DNA of 38,341 nucleotides from Eubacteriales bacterium. GTDB taxonomy: Bacteria; Bacillota; Clostridia; Lachnospirales; Lachnospiraceae. Positions 6,975 through 35,566 of this stretch are shown here, in pieces (position 1 is the first letter of the stretch; each line of letters starts with the position of its first letter). Under the pieces are notes generated by a model. The model ran no database searches. It worked only from the letters and a program-made list of their open reading frames with translations, and was not told where the DNA came from. Where the stretch lies: assembly GCA_030524585.1 (NCBI GenBank), contig JAUNGJ010000029.1, positions 1,325-39,665 of the forward strand, in the 5' to 3' direction. Both the position numbers and the translations under genes were made by a program.

Positions 6975-7037
6975 TCCCTTTCTCCTTTCTTCTACAACTC
7001 ACACAAAGTTCTTCTTCTAAAATATACAATAAGATAT

Positions 7038-7076
7038 GAAAAATCCGCTCGGCTTACAGGTCAGCGATGCGGATTC
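7038..7076 (-). terminator. Terminator-like hairpin in the carD leader
   Basis: On the minus strand AATCCGC pairs with GCGGATT, extended by three inner pairs with a one-base bulge, followed by TTTTTC. It lies about 95 bases downstream of the EamA stop codon and also just after the predicted carD promoter. It may end EamA transcripts, attenuate carD, or both. Confidence 0.6.
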
Positions 7077-7090
7077 TCGATGCTATATTT

Positions 7091-7119
7091 ATTGTAACAG
7101 AATTTTCGGCTCATTGTAA
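7091..7119 (-). promoter_or_regulatory. Predicted sigma-A promoter for carD-dtd
   Basis: On the minus strand TTACAA (7114-7119) and TACAAT (7091-7096) are 17 bases apart, each one or two bases from consensus. The predicted start near 7084 places the hairpin at 7038-7076 within the first 50 bases of the transcript. Confidence 0.6.
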
Positions 7120-7170
7120 GATATTTTTTAAATTTTTATACAAATCTCCCCTCCAGTTAACAATTGTCAA

Positions 7171-8070
7171 TTAGTTCGCCAACTGCTTTTTATCCGGAAT
7201 CTGCGCCAGAATGATCGCCGCAAACATCATCACACAGCCCATGCCTTCTCTCGCTGACAGATGCTGCCCCAGAATCGCCCATCCGGCGAGGACGGAAATA
7301 CTGGATTCCAGGCTTAAGATCAAAGATGCCACAGCCGGATTCATATTCTTCTGCCCGATAATCTGCAGGGTATAGGCCACGCCGCTTGACATCACACCGG
7401 CATAGAGGATCGGAAATACGCTCTTTAACACCGCCTCCACCGTCGTTGTCTCAAGCACAAGCATAAAAGGCACTGATAAAATTCCCACAACCAGGAACTG
7501 AATACAGGACATCTTAACGCCGTCTGTTTTCGGTGCAAAATAATCAATGACCAGAATGTGCAGCGAAAAAATCAGCGCGCACAGAAATACGTAAATATCT
7601 CCTTTTCCTATGGAAAATCCATCGGTGATACAAAGAAAATAAAGTCCTGCCAGCGCAAGCACAACTGCCGCCCAGACCTTCCAGCCAATCTTTTTCTTCA
7701 GAAAAATTCCCAGTACCGGAACCAGCACGATGTAAAACGCTGTAATAAATCCGGCTTTCCCAACGGAGGTATACTGAATCCCGATCTGCTGCAGGCTGCT
7801 GGCCGCAAACAGGCAGAGACCGCAGCAGATTCCTCCGGTAATCAGCGTCTTTGTATCCTCCGCTTTTCTCTTTTCTGATGCATGGCCGGATTTCCGGTTC
7901 ATCCTGTTTAGCAATACAATACACGGAAGCAGAGTTAAAAAACCAACAAAGCTTCTGATTCCGTTAAATGCAAATGGTCCCAGATAGTCCATTCCCATAC
8001 TCTGGGCCACAAAAGCGGTTCCCCAGATAAATGCTGCCATAAATAATATTAATGCATTCTTCGTCTTCAT
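7171..8070 (-). CDS. EamA/DMT-family permease
   Basis: A 299-residue integral membrane protein with about ten hydrophobic helices in two homologous halves, the pattern of the drug/metabolite transporter superfamily. Family features include the N-terminal WGTAFVAQSMGMDYLGPFAFNGIRSF and the paired repeat with SSGVAYTLQIIGQKNMNPAVASLILSLES near residue 230, a classic signature at the end of the second EamA repeat. It exports or imports a small metabolite that cannot be named from sequence. It is monocistronic and divergent from the GH36 gene. Confidence 0.9.
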   Translation of the reverse strand: MKTKNALILFMAAFIWGTAFVAQSMGMDYLGPFAFNGIRSFVGFLTLLPCIVLLNRMNRKSGHASEKRKAEDTKTLITGGICCGLCLFAASSLQQIGIQYTSVGKAGFITAFYIVLVPVLGIFLKKKIGWKVWAAVVLALAGLYFLCITDGFSIGKGDIYVFLCALIFSLHILVIDYFAPKTDGVKMSCIQFLVVGILSVPFMLVLETTTVEAVLKSVFPILYAGVMSSGVAYTLQIIGQKNMNPAVASLILSLESSISVLAGWAILGQHLSAREGMGCVMMFAAIILAQIPDKKQLAN

Positions 8071-8142
8071 AATCCCATTCCTCTTCTTTCGTACCCGTCT
8101 ATCTTATCACATTTGTCCTAAAATACAAATATTTTTCTTTCA

Positions 8143-8180
8143 TGTCATTCATTGACAGTATCTCCCATGATTTCTATAAT
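8143..8180 (+). promoter_or_regulatory. Consensus promoter of GH36 with overlapping palindrome
   Basis: TTGACA (8152-8157) and TATAAT (8175-8180), 17 bases apart, match consensus exactly. A palindrome (TGTCA and TGACA with 5 bases between, 8143-8157) covers the -35 box. A perfect promoter with a palindrome across its -35 suggests repression by an unidentified regulator, probably encoded elsewhere. The divergent EamA gene starts 73 bases to the left. Confidence 0.75.
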
Positions 8181-8214
8181 AAAGATACATTTACATATTG
8201 CGGAGGAAATTGGT

Positions 8215-10434
8215 ATGAATATTATATTCCACGAACAAACTCGAACCTTTCATCTTTACAATGATGAGATCAGCTATATCATGACCGTGCTTCCCAGCGG
8301 ACATATGGGACAGCTTTACTTTGGAAAAGCTATCCGGGACCGGGAAGATTTTTCCCATTTGCTGGAGGACACCTTCCGAATCACGGCCTCCTATCTGTCT
8401 GAGGAACAGAATACCATGTCCCTGGAGCATTTGAAGCAGGAATATCCGGTATACGGAACCACCGATTACCGGGAGCCGGCAGTTGAAGTCATCCAGGCAA
8501 ACGGAAGTCATTTATCGAATCTGCAGTACAGCGGCTACCGGATTACAGATGGCAAGCCAAAGCTTTCCGGTCTTCCGGCAACCTACACGGAGGATGACAG
8601 CGAAGCGAAAACTCTTACGATTACGCTGAAGGATCCTCTGACCGGCCTTGCCGCCGAGCTTCTTTATACCATATTTGCAGGGGGCGGCGCCCTGGCGCGA
8701 AGTGTACATTTTATCAATCAGGGCACAGAGATTCTTCATCTTGGAAGAGCCATGAGTCTTGCACTGGATCTGCCGGACTGCAATTACGAATGGCTGCAGT
8801 TTTCCGGCGTATGGGCAAGAGAACGCCACCTAAAGACCCGCAGTCTGGAACCGGGTATTGTATCCGTGGGAAGCCTCAGAGGCGCTTCCTCCCATGAGCA
8901 CAACCCGTTTATCATCTTAAAGCGTCCTCATACTGATGAAAATCAGGGCGAGGCTATCGGATTCAGCCTGATCTACAGCGGCAACTTTCTGGCCCAGGCG
9001 GAAGTGGACAATCAGGACGTCACCCGGATTCTTCTCGGAATCCACCCGGACACCTTCGATTGGAAGCTGGAACCGGGCGCCGATTTCCAGACTCCCGAGG
9101 CAGTAATGGTATACAGCAGTCTGGGGCTGAACCATCTGAGCCAGACCTTCCACCGGCTTTATCAGAAGCGCCTGGCAAGAGGCTACTGGCGCGACCGTCC
9201 CCGTCCGATTCTGATCAACAACTGGGAAGCCACTTATTTTGACTTCACAGAGGACCGCTTAGTAACCATTGCCGGAAAGGCAAAGGAATGCGGCGTGGAG
9301 CTGTTTGTATTGGATGACGGGTGGTTTGGCGCCAGAAGAAACGACTCTGCCGGACTTGGGGATTGGTATGCCAACAAAGAATTACTTCCAAACGGAATTT
9401 CCGGGCTCTCCAGGCGAATCGAGGCCCTTGGCATGAAATTCGGGCTCTGGTTTGAACCGGAGATGGTCAACGAAGATTCCGACCTGTACCGGGCGCATCC
9501 GGATTGGATTCTTCGGACACCGGGCCGGAGTGCTTCTCTGGGACGGCACCAGCACGTACTGGACTACTCCCGAAAGGAAGTGGTTGACTATATCTACGAA
9601 ATGATGGCAAAGCTTCTTCGGGAAGCCAGAATTTCCTACATCAAATGGGATATGAACCGCTATATTACGGAATGCTACTCCGCTGCTCTTCCTTCCGACA
9701 GACAGGGCGAAGTATTCCACCGGTACATCCTTGGTGTATATGATCTGTATGACCGTCTGACCCGTGAATTTCCTCATGTGCTGTTCGAATCCTGCGCCAG
9801 CGGCGGCGCCCGCTTCGACCCGGGACTTCTCTACTATGCGCCCCAGGGCTGGACCAGCGATGACTCAGACGCCATTGAACGGCTTAAGATACAATACGGC
9901 ACTTCCTACTGCTATCCGATCAGCTGTATGGGAAGCCATGTATCCGCGGTTCCGAACCATCAGGTATTCCGCAGCACACCGCTGTATACCCGCGCCAATG
10001 TGGCGTATTTCGGAACCTTTGGCTATGAGCTGGATCTGAATAAACTGACCGCAGACGAGCAGGAAGAAGTGAAACAGCAGATCGCATTTATGAAGGAATA
10101 CCGCGAGTTATTCCAGTTCGGTGTCTTTTACCGTCTCCGCAGTCCTTTTGAGGATAATTATACCTCCTGGATGGTGGTAAGCCCGGACCAGAAAACGGCC
10201 ATCGTAGGCTGGTATAAGACCTTAAACCATGTCAACGTGCCTTTCACACGCGTCCGGCTTCAGGGCCTTGCCCCGGACCTCTGTTATCACCTGGAAGACA
10301 GCAGCCTCTCTTTCTATGGTGATGAGCTGATGAATGCCGGACTAATCACCTCCGACTCCATGTGCGGAGAACTGACCGGAAAACGGCCAAGCTGTGATTT
10401 TGACTCCCGGCTGTTTATACTAAAAGCATATTAA
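8215..10434 (+). CDS. Alpha-galactosidase, glycoside hydrolase family 36
   Basis: A 739-residue cytoplasmic enzyme that hydrolyses terminal alpha-1,6-galactose from melibiose and raffinose-type sugars. The retaining GH36 catalytic residues are visible: nucleophile Asp479 in YIKWDMNR and acid/base Asp549 in GWTSDDSDAIERL. WFGARRNDSAGLGDWYANKELLPNG and LWFEPEMVNEDSDLY are further family landmarks. Length fits the bacterial tetrameric subgroup (about 730-745). No signal peptide is present. The ATG at 8215 has GGAGG 8 bases upstream; a TTG codon at 8152 is in frame but is the promoter -35 box. A strong terminator follows, so it is a single-gene unit. No transporter adjoins it. Confidence 0.95.
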   Translation: MNIIFHEQTRTFHLYNDEISYIMTVLPSGHMGQLYFGKAIRDREDFSHLLEDTFRITASYLSEEQNTMSLEHLKQEYPVYGTTDYREPAVEVIQANGSHLSNLQYSGYRITDGKPKLSGLPATYTEDDSEAKTLTITLKDPLTGLAAELLYTIFAGGGALARSVHFINQGTEILHLGRAMSLALDLPDCNYEWLQFSGVWARERHLKTRSLEPGIVSVGSLRGASSHEHNPFIILKRPHTDENQGEAIGFSLIYSGNFLAQAEVDNQDVTRILLGIHPDTFDWKLEPGADFQTPEAVMVYSSLGLNHLSQTFHRLYQKRLARGYWRDRPRPILINNWEATYFDFTEDRLVTIAGKAKECGVELFVLDDGWFGARRNDSAGLGDWYANKELLPNGISGLSRRIEALGMKFGLWFEPEMVNEDSDLYRAHPDWILRTPGRSASLGRHQHVLDYSRKEVVDYIYEMMAKLLREARISYIKWDMNRYITECYSAALPSDRQGEVFHRYILGVYDLYDRLTREFPHVLFESCASGGARFDPGLLYYAPQGWTSDDSDAIERLKIQYGTSYCYPISCMGSHVSAVPNHQVFRSTPLYTRANVAYFGTFGYELDLNKLTADEQEEVKQQIAFMKEYRELFQFGVFYRLRSPFEDNYTSWMVVSPDQKTAIVGWYKTLNHVNVPFTRVRLQGLAPDLCYHLEDSSLSFYGDELMNAGLITSDSMCGELTGKRPSCDFDSRLFILKAY

Positions 10435-11775: not shown

Positions 11776-11793
11776 CAAATATTTGCAGAAAAT

Positions 11794-11915
11794 GTCTTTT
11801 CTCATCCGGACTATACCGTCGGTTCTGGAATTCCTCAGCTGAGGTCACCAGATCAGCCGCTTACGCGGGTCATGGACTATACCATCGGTAGGGACTTGCA
11901 CCCTGCCACAAAGAC
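11794..11915 (-). promoter_or_regulatory. FMN riboswitch (RFN element)
   Basis: Read on the minus strand the conserved RFN blocks occur in order: GGCAGGGTG, CCCTACCGATGGTATAGTCC, CCCGCG with GCGG, CTGATCTGGTG, TTCCAG, AACCGACGGTATAGTCCGGATG, and GAGAAAAGAC. The closing helix pairs GTCTTT with AAAGAC. This is an FMN-binding aptamer that switches off ribU (and the downstream PNPOx-like gene) when FMN is plentiful, through the terminator at 11750-11775. Confidence 0.97.
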
Positions 11916-11972
11916 TTCCATATTCTATTTTCAGAATTCGGTGGTTGCAGTAACATCATCTGCTAATTCCCA

Positions 11973-29164: not shown

Positions 29165-29199
29165 CAATGCTACATACACAGGATATGGAGGGATACTGC

Positions 29200-29889
29200 A
29201 TGAAGTTATCCAACCGCTTCTATTCTTTTTGCGGTATACTGATGCTGGTCAGCGAGATTTGGAAGCAATGGACTCTCACTTTTATTTTAAATCATGGTTC
29301 TTACAGTTGGTGGCATTTCCCATTTCAACTGTGCAGTATCCCTATGTATGTCTGCCTGGCAATCGGAGTGTTAAACTCCCCCAGAATCAGAAAGCATTCC
29401 CCATTCCTTGATGTCCACGCAGACCGTATCTGCAGTCTGCTCATGGCTTTTCTGATGGATTTTGGAATGCTTGGCGGTATCTTCACGTTTTTTGATACCA
29501 GTGGAATGCACTATGACTATCTGCCGCTGACCATCCATTCCTTCGCCTGGCACATTCTGCTTATTTTTATCGGCTGCTTCACCGGCCTGAATCCCAAAGC
29601 AGACCACACATGGCGGGGATTTTGCTTCAGTACCGCTTTATATCTCATATGCTGTCTGGCTGCCACAATTTTCAACTTGTTATTTTACCAATTTGGTGTT
29701 ATTAATATGTTCTACATCAGCCCCCACTATTATATGCATCAGAAGGTATTCCATTATATCACAGACACCTTTGGCAATGGGTACGGAATCGCTGCTTATA
29801 TTACCGCGTCTGTCATCGGCGGGGGCCTGTTTCACCTGATGTGGAAGCGAATATCAGATTCTTTGTCTATAAAGAGGATAATAAGTTGA
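29200..29889 (+). CDS. YwaF/TMEM164-like membrane protein
   Basis: A 229-residue integral membrane protein with about six helices. It resembles the YwaF family (DUF, also TIGR02206): the conserved WHFPFQLCSIPMYVCL near residue 35, a following helix with FGMLGGIFTFFDTSGM, HSFAWHILLIFIGCF, and a late FYISPHYYMHQ. The motif LPLHLC/FPFQLCSIP with a histidine is diagnostic. Biochemical role is unknown for the bacterial family. The ATG at 29200 is chosen because GGAGGG lies 8 bases upstream; an ATG at 29167 is in frame but has no ribosome site. The next promoter (29886) overlaps its stop codon. Confidence 0.8.
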   Translation: MKLSNRFYSFCGILMLVSEIWKQWTLTFILNHGSYSWWHFPFQLCSIPMYVCLAIGVLNSPRIRKHSPFLDVHADRICSLLMAFLMDFGMLGGIFTFFDTSGMHYDYLPLTIHSFAWHILLIFIGCFTGLNPKADHTWRGFCFSTALYLICCLAATIFNLLFYQFGVINMFYISPHYYMHQKVFHYITDTFGNGYGIAAYITASVIGGGLFHLMWKRISDSLSIKRIIS

Positions 29890-29946: not shown

Positions 29947-30459
29947 ATGTTAGATACAAAAGTTGTAGAACTGTTAAATCAGCAAATAAATAAGGAGTTT
30001 TATTCCGCATATTTATACCTGGATTTCTCCAATTATTATTATGATCAGGGTTTAGATGGGTTTGGAAACTGGTATAAGATTCAGGCTCAGGAAGAGCGTG
30101 ACCATGCAATGCTGTTTGTTCAGTATTTACAGAATAACGGCGAACAGATCGTTCTGGAGGCAATTGAAAAACCGGCAATTAAGCTGGAAAGCGCAAAGGC
30201 GGTACTGGCAGAAGGCCTGAAGCATGAGCAGTATGTGACTAGCTTAATACATACCATTTATGATGCTGCATATTCCGTAAAGGATTTCCGCACCATGCAG
30301 TTTTTGGATTGGTTTGTAAAAGAACAGGGCGAGGAGGAGACGAATGCAGATAATCTGGTAAAGAAATTTGAGTTATTCGGCGATGATCCGAAGAGTTTAT
30401 ATATGCTGGACAGTGAACTCGGTGGGCGAGTATATTCTGCACCGTCATTAGTTTTATAA
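29947..30459 (+). CDS. ftnA: Ferritin, FtnA type
   Basis: A 170-residue four-helix iron-storage protein that assembles a 24-subunit shell and oxidises Fe2+. The ferroxidase ligands align one-for-one with E. coli FtnA numbering: Glu17, Glu50, His53, Glu94, Gln127 and Glu130. There is no haem-binding methionine pattern, so it is a non-haem ferritin, not bacterioferritin. The C-terminus carries LGGRVYSAPSLVL. It has a strong promoter and ribosome site and is followed after 3 bases by a BFD-type [2Fe-2S] gene, which points to a storage and release pair. Confidence 0.96.
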   Translation: MLDTKVVELLNQQINKEFYSAYLYLDFSNYYYDQGLDGFGNWYKIQAQEERDHAMLFVQYLQNNGEQIVLEAIEKPAIKLESAKAVLAEGLKHEQYVTSLIHTIYDAAYSVKDFRTMQFLDWFVKEQGEEETNADNLVKKFELFGDDPKSLYMLDSELGGRVYSAPSLVL

Positions 30460-30462
30460 GAT

Positions 30463-30654
30463 ATGAATAGAAAAAAAGTAGTCTGTCCATGTTATCATGT
30501 CACAAAGGGCGACATCGCTGATGCCCTGGATAACGGCGCAAAGAACTATAAAGATGTAAAAAAGATGACAAAAGCCGGAAAAGGCTGCGGCAAATGTAAG
30601 AAAAAGGTCAAAAAACTGACCAAAAAGCTGCTGAAAAAGAAATCCGCAGACTAA
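30463..30654 (+). CDS. BFD-like [2Fe-2S] protein, likely ferritin-associated
   Basis: A 63-residue protein with a C8-x-C10 and C42-x2-C45 pattern; the 31 residues between the pairs equal the spacing in bacterioferritin-associated ferredoxin (C4, C6, C38, C41 in P. aeruginosa Bfd). CPCYHVTKGDI at the N-terminus and KGCGKC are typical BFD-domain motifs. The C-terminus is extremely lysine-rich. In known systems Bfd reduces the stored iron core for release. It begins 3 bases after the ferritin stop codon and lacks its own clear ribosome site, so translation is probably coupled to ferritin. Confidence 0.88.
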   Translation: MNRKKVVCPCYHVTKGDIADALDNGAKNYKDVKKMTKAGKGCGKCKKKVKKLTKKLLKKKSAD

Positions 30655-30736: not shown

Positions 30737-30752
30737 TGGTTGCAAAATTTAT

Positions 30753-30823
30753 AGGGGATTGGTCAAATGGTATGACAGGAGTCTCCAAAACTCTTAGCGG
30801 GAGTTCGATTCTCTCATCCCCTG
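30753..30823 (+). tRNA. tRNA-Trp (CCA anticodon)
   Basis: A complete cloverleaf of 71 bases. Acceptor stem AGGGGAT with ATCCCCT (seven pairs), D-arm GTCA and TGAC with a 7-base loop holding GG, anticodon stem GGAGT and ACTCT with loop CTCCAAA (anticodon CCA), a 4-base variable loop, T-stem GGGAG and CTCTC with loop TTCGATT, and discriminator G73. TrpRS identity features (A1-U72, G73, CCA) are kept and parts match the E. coli tRNA-Trp. The 3' CCA is not encoded (GTT follows). It stands alone and has its own promoter and terminator. It is compact and has three G-U pairs or so, hence perhaps an extra copy. Confidence 0.93.
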
Positions 30824-30826
30824 GTT

Positions 30827-30859
30827 AACCCGTAGTTGTTGAAACTACGGGTTTTCTTT
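30827..30859 (+). terminator. Intrinsic terminator after tRNA-Trp
   Basis: A perfect 11-bp stem (AACCCGTAGTT and AACTACGGGTT) with a 5-base loop, followed by TTCTTT. It begins 4 bases after the tRNA. A truncated look-alike lacking the 3' arm occurs at 31165-31186. Confidence 0.92.
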
Positions 30860-30895
30860 ATCTTCCGCACAGCGGCTTTTTGTTTAGAGAACTAT

Positions 30896-30937
30896 TTGAC
30901 AGCGCCGCACATTAGGACATATCCTGCATATCCTAAT
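30896..30937 (+). promoter_or_regulatory. Promoter with inverted repeat before the R/D/N/H/C protein
   Basis: TTGACA (30896-30901) is followed after 18 bases by TATCCT (30920-30925). An inverted repeat ATTAGGA (30911-30917) and TCCTAAT (30931-30937) overlaps the -10, and CATATCCT is repeated directly within it. This suggests a regulated promoter. The -10 match is moderate. A ribosome site AAGGAG follows at about 30943. Confidence 0.5.
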
Positions 30938-30956
30938 AAAAAAAGGAGAATTTTCC

Positions 30957-31148
30957 ATGTCGAATCTTTTCGGATGTTTTTCTTCAGACAGCCGGTGCAG
31001 ACGCAATGATCACGATCGCAGAGACCACCGATGCGACGACCGCCGCGATAATCGCCATAATGACCGCCGTGATGATTGCAGAGACAATCGTCATGATGAT
31101 CGGTGCGATGACCACTGTGACAGAAACGACCATGACTGCCGGCGTTAA
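30957..31148 (+). CDS. Low-complexity Arg/Asp/His/Asn/Cys small protein
   Basis: A 63-residue protein. Residues 1-12 (MSNLFGCFSSDS) look ordinary; residues 13-63 contain only five amino acids, R, D, N, H and C. In total there are 18 Asp, 17 Arg, 6 His, 7 Cys and 6 Asn. A 12-residue unit repeats at residues 30-41 and 42-53. Nearly equal Arg and Asp make it near neutral but highly charged, and its His and Cys could bind metal. It has a good ribosome site (AAGGAG, 9-base spacing) and a plausible promoter, so translation on this strand is likely. No known family is recognised. It stands between tRNA-Trp with iron-storage genes and a gene remnant. The opposite strand also has a 49-codon frame. Confidence 0.6.
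   Translation: MSNLFGCFSSDSRCRRNDHDRRDHRCDDRRDNRHNDRRDDCRDNRHDDRCDDHCDRNDHDCRR
31044..31115 (+). repeat. Two tandem 36-base units inside the small ORF
   Basis: Two 12-codon units (31044-31079 and 31080-31115) encode RDNRHNDRRDDC and RDNRHDDRCDDH. They differ mainly at third positions and a few substitutions, which suggests an older duplication that has been kept in frame. Confidence 0.6.
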
Positions 31149-31164
31149 TAATAGAGACTTAAAA

Positions 31165-31186
31165 AACCCGTAGTTTCTTTATCTTC
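31165..31186 (+). repeat. Truncated copy of the tRNA-Trp terminator
   Basis: AACCCGTAGTT runs straight into TCTTTATCTTC. The functional terminator at 30827-30865 has the same two blocks, with the loop and 3' arm between them. This copy cannot form the hairpin. It may be the scar of a duplication that includes the small ORF, or chance. Confidence 0.4.
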
Positions 31187-31195
31187 TTTAGAATT

Positions 31196-31411
31196 TTAGA
31201 TTTCGAAGCTAAGCTCAAAAGCCTGGCGATTTGCATTCATGACGTTCCCGACTTTTTCAGCATCGCCTATAACGTAGGTCTCCAAAACCAGTGTCCTTAA
31301 TGATTCCGCCATTTCTCTTCTGGGCCTCATTTCAAAAGCGCTGACAATGGTAATCCCTATTATAAATTTCTCAACAAATCCTATGCTTACCCGTTGTATC
31401 CGGCCGCTCTC
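31196..31411 (-). pseudogene. Remnant: C-terminus of an FAD/NADH:flavin oxidoreductase
   Basis: The minus strand has an open frame of about 71 codons with no start codon backed by a ribosome site. Its final 50 residues match the end of old yellow enzyme-like two-domain oxidoreductases (BaiCD/FadH type): SAFEMRPRREMAESLRTL, then TYVIGDAEKVGNVMNANRQ, the FAD-binding GD motif that closes the protein, and a natural stop at 31196-31198. The upstream ~600 residues expected for the family are missing; the region before is replaced by the GH13 gene promoter and start. It is a decayed gene tail. Confidence 0.75.
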
Positions 31412-31460: not shown

Positions 31461-32768
31461 ATGTGGGCTTATAATAGCGTATTTTATCAAATATATCCGA
31501 TTGGATTCTGCGGCGCCCCCTATGCAAACGATGGGGTTTATGCTCCGCGCATTAAAAAACTGATGGAATGGAGTCCCTATTTGAAGGATCTGGGTGTAGA
31601 CTCCATCATTCTGAATCCGATTTTTGAATCAGATAATCACGGTTACGATACCAGAGATTTCCGTTCCATTGACTGCCGCCTTGGCAGCAACGAAGATTTT
31701 GCAGAAGTCTGCAAAGACCTCCATGAGCATGGTGTAAAGATTGTGCTGGACGGCGTATTTAACCATGTAGGACGCGGCTTCTGGGCCTTTCAGGATGTTC
31801 AGGAAAAGAAATGGGATTCCCCGTACAGAGATTGGTTTCATATCAGCTTTGAGGGCAACAGCTGCTATGACGACGGTTTCTGGTACGAAGGCTGGGAAGG
31901 ACATTTTGAATTGGTAAAGTTAAACCTTCGCAATCCTGCTGTTGTAGAGTATCTCCTGGATTGTATCCGATTCTGGGTAGAGGAATTTGATATTGACGGA
32001 CTCCGCCTTGATGTAGCATATAGTCTGGACCGGGATTTTGTGAAGACTCTCCGCTGGTTTACCGGCAGTCTGAAGCCGGATTTTGTCCTGATTGGAGAGG
32101 TATTATTCGGGGATTATAATTTGATCGTAAATGACGAGATGCTTCACAGCTGCACCAACTATGAGTGCTACAAGGGAATCTTCTCAAGCTTTAACTCTAT
32201 GAATATGTTCGAGATTGCCCATTCCCTGCATCGCCAGTATGGTCCGGACCCCTGGTGCATTTACCGCGGCAGGCATCTGGTGAACTTTGTGGACAATCAC
32301 GATGTGACCAGATTGGCAAGCATTTTGACCAACAAAGAGCATATCCGCCCTGCGTACGGCCTGCTTCTTGGTATGCCGGGTATTCCATGCATTTACTATG
32401 GAAGTGAGTGGGGCGCAGAGGGACAGAAAGCGCCGGATAACGACTATGCGCTTCGCCCGTGCTTTAAGGCCCCCGAGCCGAACGATCTGACCAAATATAT
32501 CAGGAAACTGATTGCAATCCGCCAGAACAGCCACGGACTCTGCAATGGAAGCTACCGCAATATTGTTCTGACCAACCATCAGCTTATTTTTGAACGGGCT
32601 TCCGAAAAAGAACGGGTACTGGTAGCAATCAATGCTTCTGGGGACGCGTACACCGCCTGCCATGGGGATTTGAATGGCCTGGTTACCGAACTGCTGAGTG
32701 AGGAAACTGTTCAGCTTAACGGACAGTTAGCAATGGCGCCTTACAGCGTACAGTATCTAAAATTCTAA
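31461..32768 (+). CDS. Alpha-amylase family protein, GH13 (cyclomaltodextrinase-like)
   Basis: A 435-residue intracellular enzyme (no signal peptide) for alpha-1,4-glucans or maltodextrins. Conserved regions: DGVFNHVG near residue 94, GLRLDVA with nucleophile Asp184, IGEV with acid/base Glu213, and NFVDNHD with Asp281. It lacks the N-terminal domain of typical neopullulanases, so it is a compact form. GMPGIPCIYYGSEWG is the usual late motif. The start at 31461 has GAGAGG 8 bases upstream; the in-frame codon at 31347 lies in the oxidoreductase remnant and has no ribosome site. A strong bidirectional terminator follows. Exact specificity cannot be told. Confidence 0.9.
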   Translation: MWAYNSVFYQIYPIGFCGAPYANDGVYAPRIKKLMEWSPYLKDLGVDSIILNPIFESDNHGYDTRDFRSIDCRLGSNEDFAEVCKDLHEHGVKIVLDGVFNHVGRGFWAFQDVQEKKWDSPYRDWFHISFEGNSCYDDGFWYEGWEGHFELVKLNLRNPAVVEYLLDCIRFWVEEFDIDGLRLDVAYSLDRDFVKTLRWFTGSLKPDFVLIGEVLFGDYNLIVNDEMLHSCTNYECYKGIFSSFNSMNMFEIAHSLHRQYGPDPWCIYRGRHLVNFVDNHDVTRLASILTNKEHIRPAYGLLLGMPGIPCIYYGSEWGAEGQKAPDNDYALRPCFKAPEPNDLTKYIRKLIAIRQNSHGLCNGSYRNIVLTNHQLIFERASEKERVLVAINASGDAYTACHGDLNGLVTELLSEETVQLNGQLAMAPYSVQYLKF

Positions 32769-35281: not shown

Positions 35282-35566
35282 CAAAAAAATCGTCCTTATC
35301 TTAACAGATAAGGACGAAATATATTCCGCGGTACCACCTTGTTTTGCGGGCAGCTCACACTGCCAGCCTCAATAACTGCATCTACAGCCCTACGCATAAC
35401 GCGCGCCCACGTCACAGCCTACTTGCACTCTCATACGCGCTTTGGGTGTGCAGCTCCGAGATGTATTCACATTTCCCACTTTCATGCGCCTCTCACCCGC
35501 CGGCAGCTCTCTGTACGGGTTAAGAAATGCTACTTCTTCTCTTCCAAGCCTTTATTTATTTTACTC
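35282..35566 (-). promoter_or_regulatory. T-box riboswitch, tyrosine specifier
   Basis: Minus-strand leader of about 285 bases. The conserved T-box AAGGTGGTACCGCGG lies at 35326-35340, followed by a terminator with a perfect CGTCCTTATC stem and T7 (35284-35316). Stem I features include AGAAGTAGC, an AGAGAG block, and a GTGAATACATCTC segment whose UAC (35463-35465) is a Tyr codon in the expected specifier position. Uncharged tRNA-Tyr would stabilise the antiterminator and allow transcription of the zincin, tyrS and flavin reductase-like genes. Confidence 0.92.

Follow-up and report, generated by a model that had tools for sequence, protein, structure and literature searches.

CotC is a small, charged, low-complexity protein of the spore coat, and CotC and CotU are placed here beside CotB and CotG. 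In published accounts, CotC dimerises and pairs with CotU (PMC2841587), CotB and CotG of the Bacillus spore coat present few-residue, probably disordered repeats at the spore surface (PMC7821199), and Cys-rich proteins self-assemble at spore surfaces (PMC7677010), including the exosporium proteins CdeC, CdeM and CsxA, whose Cys lie in partly disordered, repetitive sequence, with NPC repeats in CdeC. Two other kinds of protein bear on the comparison, the low-complexity R/D mixed-charge domains, in which Arg and Asp dominate and charge is balanced (PMC9324279), and the His-/Asp-rich low-complexity regions of bacterial cobalt and nickel proteins, with a mean of 53% His in the cobalamin-synthesis set (PMC6821194).

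A small open reading frame (ORF) in a genome of the Lachnospiraceae can be set against each of these. Like CotB and CotG, its product is made of few-residue repeats and is probably disordered, whereas the repeats of CotB and CotG are Ser/Lys/Arg and its own tail contains no Ser, Lys or Tyr and has no sequence match to them. With the Cys-rich exosporium proteins it shares Cys in a repetitive, partly disordered setting; those proteins are longer, of other composition and known to self-assemble, a behaviour that is no more than a possibility for the ORF product. Its tail is low in complexity, dominated by Arg and Asp and balanced in charge, as an R/D mixed-charge domain is, but it belongs to a bacterial protein that stands alone at 63 residues, in which a four-residue repeat also includes Cys, His and Asn and for which no relative was found. 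His and Asp are present as in the bacterial metal-binding regions, but His accounts for 6 of 51 tail residues (12%), and Arg equals Asp. By analogy, the preferred though unproven reading is that the protein may work as the CotB/CotG-type and Cys-rich exosporium proteins do, with membership in neither claimed.

Results

Composition and repeat structure

The window, the whole stretch of 38,341 nucleotides that was analysed, contains the ORF at 30957–31148 on the + strand, 63 codons and a stop, with its coordinates, frame, start, stop and composition all as the original prediction gave them. A head of 12 residues (MSNLFGCFSSDS) is followed by a 51-residue tail (residues 13–63) limited to R17, D17, C6, H6 and N5, and the predicted mass is 7.9 kDa. 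The seven Cys that had been described belong to the whole 63-residue protein; six are in the tail, Cys7 being in the head. The reported near-equality of Arg and Asp is exact in the tail, where 17 of each give a net charge of 0, and with Arg or Asp at 34 of the 51 residues the tail has both the R/D dominance and the near-zero net charge of an R/D mixed-charge domain. A Shine-Dalgarno sequence, GGAG, read by eye at 30945–30948 (+), lies 8 nt ahead of the ATG, in agreement with the ribosome site already proposed.

Judged by composition, the protein is probably disordered. Phase separation, which had also been suggested, is possible and is not favoured; the charges in the tail are well mixed (5.3% of shuffles were equal or better), and of the R/D peptides described in PMC9324279 a blocky one phase-separated and an alternating one did not, which argues against strong phase separation here.

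Taken as such, the two 12-residue repeats noted earlier are weak: their best pair without overlap is identical at 9 of 12 residues, a level reached in 4.8% of 5,000 shuffles. They are better read as a four-residue repeat, the stronger periodicity. Eight consecutive tetrads of the form [RCH][RHC][DN][DNH], each a 12-nt unit in the DNA, make up the core at residues 21–52 (31017–31112, +): RRDH RCDD RRDN RHND RRDD CRDN RHDD RCDD. The repeat can be summarised as a degenerate tetrapeptide, R-[R/H/C]-D-[D/N]; residues 13–20 and 53–63 are out of phase with it. Self-matches in the protein are high at lags 4, 8, 12, 16, 20 and 24 and low at 2, 6, 10 and 14. Among 20,000 shuffles the longest run of tetrads was five, reached three times. 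The period of four has p 0.0006, or p 0.005 when the best of periods 2–8 is taken, values that are flattering because both the limits of the tail and the form of the tetrads were picked after the sequence had been viewed. In the DNA, TRF reported a 12-nt period at 31038–31075 with 65% matches. The best 12-residue pair is identical at 24 of 36 nucleotides, the level given by random synonymous codons (mean, 24.5), so no recent duplication is visible; only two of its nine shared residues use an identical codon.

A tail of five amino acids is not readily produced from the base composition of the ORF. When bases were shuffled within each codon position, a five-letter tail arose in 0 of 20,000 trials (mean of 18.7 residues other than R, D, N, H and C; minimum, 8), and shuffling of third positions only likewise gave 0 of 20,000 (minimum, 2 other residues). 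Among 11,247 distinct open frames of at least 30 residues, from 133 records (702,834 bases), the next-best 30-residue window held 23 RDNHC residues versus 30 in the ORF, and in the window together with 41 stretches of the host genome (662,761 bases) the runner-up held 22.

Coding potential

Mutual information within frame-1 codons was significant (positions 1–2, p 0.0001; 2–3, p 0.0006; 1–3, p 0.005), whereas covariation across neighbouring codons reached significance in none of six measures (p 0.08 to 0.89). Successive 12-nt units share 14 of 28 bases at codon position 1, 24 of 28 at position 2 and 12 of 28 at position 3, with position 2 standing apart from position 3 (Fisher, p 0.0018) and from position 1 (p 0.009), in pairs that are not independent. 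Only A or G occurs at second positions and mainly C or T at third positions, so the comparison between positions is a fair one. Arg is encoded by 13 CGN and four AGA codons, never swapped for the AGY codons of Ser, in proportions that by simple inspection of the counts are roughly those of 12 genes of the window.

These patterns bear on the reading that there is no gene, only a 12-nt minisatellite in decay, or some other periodic DNA, left open by chance, possibly as a small unit carried between inverted repeats. The TRF period fits that reading, as do the absence of a homolog and the repeats around the unit, where the promoter and the ORF are bracketed by a 15-nt perfect inverted repeat unique in the genome and pieces of a terminator are duplicated at both ends. 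Unconstrained decay would be expected to fall equally on all codon positions, contrary to the 14, 24 and 12 of 28 observed; the covariation keeps to codon borders, the ATG is preceded by a ribosome site, neither strand stands out in RNA folding (z −1.39 and −0.55), and Rfam matches at the ORF are sub-threshold only. We consider the reading improbable.

The opposite strand offers a second alternative, in which the true product would come from a hydrophobic frame at 30984–31133 (−), for example as a small membrane peptide. It has 49 open codons with an ATG, its residues being V, I, A, M, S, T and P, and its codon register is that of frame 1, so conservation of position 2 alone does not settle the strand. 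The + strand is favoured by the Arg codons (AGA or CGN, never AGY, as fits Arg on this strand) together with the ribosome site. The antisense frame has no Shine-Dalgarno sequence by eye ahead of its ATG and no Pfam match, and the closest upstream promoter-like match on the minus strand is at 31374–31347; a product from this frame is scarcely credible. The ORF very probably codes for protein, a judgement in which translation itself is predicted from codon patterns, and it looks like a genuine protein gene known from one genome only.

Genomic context

Upstream of the ORF, on the same strand, lie a ferritin gene (29947–30459, +; Pfam) and a gene for a BFD-like [2Fe-2S] protein (30463–30654, +; Pfam), followed by tRNA-Trp (cca) at 30752–30824 (+) and its intrinsic terminator at 30827–30853 (+), which lies between the BFD and ferritin genes and the ORF and insulates it from them. 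Downstream is a gene of the alpha-amylase family (Pfam), whose frame runs from 31347, with a possible start at 31461, to 32768. A neighbouring frame at 31196–31411 (−) has no Pfam match. Elsewhere in the window, a T-box leader (35307–35555, −) and an FMN riboswitch (11790–11919, −) score above their Rfam thresholds, and a 240-residue frame at 29167–29889 (+) matches Pfam TMEM164, a name taken from eukaryotic proteins, at 31.2 bits versus a cut-off of 25.

The proximity of ferritin and BFD underlay the original prediction of metal handling, in which a peptide tied to these genes would chelate Fe, Zn, Ni or Cu through His, Cys and Asp. Metal binding by the protein is chemically possible on its composition, with six His, six or seven Cys and 17 Asp in 63 residues, and His-/Asp-rich low-complexity regions do occur in bacterial cobalt and nickel proteins (PMC6821194). 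The association with ferritin and BFD gained no support. The link is weak because both genes are cut off from the ORF by tRNA-Trp and the terminator that follows it, and it was not seen in the congener loci that were read: ferritin is present in 8 of 11 genomes of the genus, a tRNA occurs within 1.5-kb flanks at one of seven congener ferritin loci, and at the two closest congener loci, and at the one with the tRNA, both BFD and the ORF are absent by eye after ferritin. No conserved Cys/His ligand motif was found in the protein, where Cys and His alternate with Arg in shared repeat slots and no Pfam match occurs, and the 12% His of the tail is far from the mean of 53% in the published cobalamin-synthesis set (PMC6821194). 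A metal-handling peptide of this kind is unlikely.

The ORF sits within a set of repeats. The left arm of the 15-nt perfect inverted repeat (GAAACTACGGGTTTT; 30841–30855, +) doubles as the 3' arm of the tRNA terminator, and the right arm (GAAACTACGGGTTTT; 31163–31177, −) lies a short way past the ORF, so that the two bracket the promoter and the ORF; the host genome contains no further copy, even with one mismatch allowed. The unit is also flanked by the direct repeats TTTCTTTATCTTC and AACCCGTAGTT, and direct and inverted copies of terminator pieces are present at 30827–30865 and 31163–31186, which suggests a duplication of the terminator region on either side of the unit.

The 3' side of tRNA-Trp differs among ten congeners. 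An integrase (Pfam Phage_integrase) is found there in two of them (loci L058 and L063), the first 330 residues of the L063 protein recur in the same position in a third (L062), and a recombinase-like fragment in a fourth (L059) is unmatched in Pfam. In this genus tRNA-Trp appears to serve as an integration site.

Search for relatives

The protein was unmatched in Pfam (E up to 1), NCBIfam, PHROGs and PDB sequences (E up to 10), in keeping with the earlier statement that no described family resembles it, and titles and abstract openings in the literature searched yielded no description of a protein of this kind. Known coat families likewise gave no sequence match in Pfam, NCBIfam or PHROGs, searches that serve low-complexity queries poorly. 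At E 0.001 the host alone matched (1 of 11 genomes of the genus and 1 of 397 of the family), a result of limited sensitivity, and in the host genome the gene itself was the only good match.

At looser limits, with the host included, matches extended to 4 of 11 genomes of the genus (E 1; five rows), 49 of 397 of the family (E 0.5; 52 rows) and 28 of 391 of the class (E 0.3; 29 rows). The loci behind these weak matches (5, 29 and 29 taken, one of them shared, with 23 of the 52 family rows left out) numbered 62, and a run of three tetrads was found in none, part of the loci being scanned on the plus strand and part on both; the best RDNHC fraction among them was 0.77, in a His/Arg-rich frame. Pattern searches returned 265 stretches in GTDB contigs and 17 in IMG/VR, with 0 confirmed as relatives in either, and plasmids and phages gave no match to the protein with the low-complexity filter on. 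The head motif M-x-N-[L/F]-F-G-C-F occurs in 57 contigs, and 0 of the 57 translations has an R/D/N/H/C tail. At the DNA level, the interval 30826–31346 had matches at E 1 in 52 of 61 genomes; outside the host these were no longer than 48 bases among the matches listed, the host having two more beyond those listed. None of the close relatives carries the ORF interval.

The reach of such searches was gauged with controls, which assume a single database size; the genome searches may differ from them in settings. With phmmer under its default correction, proteins with a shuffled tail and the head kept were found in 10 of 200 cases at E 0.001 and 78 of 200 at E 1, compared with 0/200 for a random head and 0/200 when diluted. 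Invented tetrad arrays of 8 to 30 units were found in 6–27% of cases at E 0.001 and 61–87% at E 1, and arrays of six units in 6% and 43%; at the limits used here the longer arrays would be detected less often than at E 1. With blastp, 0 of 500 were recovered with either the low-complexity filter or composition correction on, and 436 of 500 with both off. The plasmid and phage negatives, obtained with the filter on, therefore say little, and those from GTDB and IMG/VR possibly little as well; since composition-corrected searches miss most such relatives, 'orphan' here means not findable in this way. The original prediction had held that the absence of a homolog anywhere would refute it; none was found within these limits, and the patterns seen at the codon level speak against discarding the ORF for want of one. 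Within reach of the searches the gene is an orphan, and it may belong to a class that changes fast.

On a rival account this is an orphan gene, young or quick to change, that is translated with no role in sporulation; its product would be a vegetative polyampholyte whose function is unsettled or of another kind (such as binding of nucleic acid or of a surface), or would have no selected function yet. This account is in line with the lack of a relative at E 0.001 in ten congeners or 396 other family genomes, with the variable spot 3' of tRNA-Trp, alongside an integrase in at least two of ten congeners, and with a sigma-70-like promoter ahead of the ORF. The retention of position 2 while position 3 drifted between units points instead to age and selection, as does the host-like codon use, rather than to recent birth. 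We hold this account to be possible, well short of probable.

Promoters and sporulation genes

Two promoter-like sites overlap upstream of the ORF. A sigma-70-like site, TTGACA-N18-TATCCT, at 30896–30925 (+) has 10 of 12 matches; there are five sigma-70-like sites in the 1.1-kb region versus 2.9 in shuffles, which makes this weak evidence for a promoter. A sigma-K-like site, AC-N16-CATATCCTA, at 30909–30935 (+) ends 21 nt before the ATG. In C. difficile, sigma-K promoters have AC with a CATA-type −10, and CATATAAT at sigK P2 (PMC3789822). In the window the pattern AC-N16-CATANNNTA has four matches versus 0.76 expected, with as many in 1 of 100 shuffles, and the three remaining matches lie inside long ORFs; N17 spacing gives a single match, which overlaps the FMN riboswitch, versus 0.81 expected. 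For any one ORF, the chance of a sigma-K-like match in the 80 nt upstream is near 0.002, a figure that leaves uncounted the several other sigma consensuses that were weighed, the match having been sought after the idea of a spore protein had arisen.

Two sporulation genes were sought in the host genome, and on spo0A (three Spo0A_C matches above cut-off) and the SigK-like halves the host has a sporulation programme. Two separate frames, about 8 kb apart, have the halves of SigK as their best NCBIfam models, each below the curated SigK cut-off, as halves would be; a B. subtilis control was below it too. The sigK gene appears, from these matches, to be split in the host by a skin-like element. 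The host stretch concerned (L133; G000:C4:9900-19300) holds the sigK halves and recombinase frames at 249–641, 7015–8709 and 8615–9058. The element carries a 564-residue serine-recombinase-like gene whose best NCBIfam matches, CcrB and XisF, fall short of the cut-off; judged by eye, it also contains genes for ABC transporters and two-component systems, a content unlike that of a phage. We take SigK-like halves with a serine-recombinase-like gene between them to be the known skin arrangement.

Discussion

The sigma-K-like box, spo0A and the split sigK lead us to prefer, as an unproven and tentative reading, that the ORF encodes a late-sporulation, disordered and cross-linkable protein of the spore surface, in place of the metal handling first suggested. 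If coding is granted, a role at the spore surface becomes a serious possibility, still short of even. RNA polymerase with sigma-K would transcribe the ORF in the mother cell at a late stage of sporulation, and the translated protein would become part of the spore coat or exosporium; there its alternating ++/−− charges may give multivalent binding and its seven Cys, with six His, may cross-link it or bind metal. Dependence on sigma-K, location at the spore and cross-linking are, like translation and disorder, predictions from the locus.

Several observations count against the spore-surface reading. The sigma-70-like site overlaps the sigma-K-like one, the SigK matches are all below the curated cut-off, no sporulation gene was seen among the annotated neighbours of the ORF, and no relative was found in any spore former among the genomes of the genus, family and class or the GTDB contigs. 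The head is a putative coat-targeting signal at most, and is counted here on the same side.

A more far-reaching version, which we regard as rather unlikely, is that the protein represents a new kind of structural protein, a Cys/His mixed-charge R-[R/H/C]-D-[D/N] repeat made late in sporulation, in which ++/−− association would be followed by locking through disulfides or metal, and which would diverge quickly enough for each species possibly to carry a version of its own that homology search does not see.

The ORF exposes a blind spot, in that composition-corrected searches miss most relatives of such proteins. If it is a spore-surface protein, it would show that such a component can be built from a four-residue repeat written in five letters, and as a compact peptide it would allow charge patterning, Cys cross-linking and metal binding to be separated for testing.
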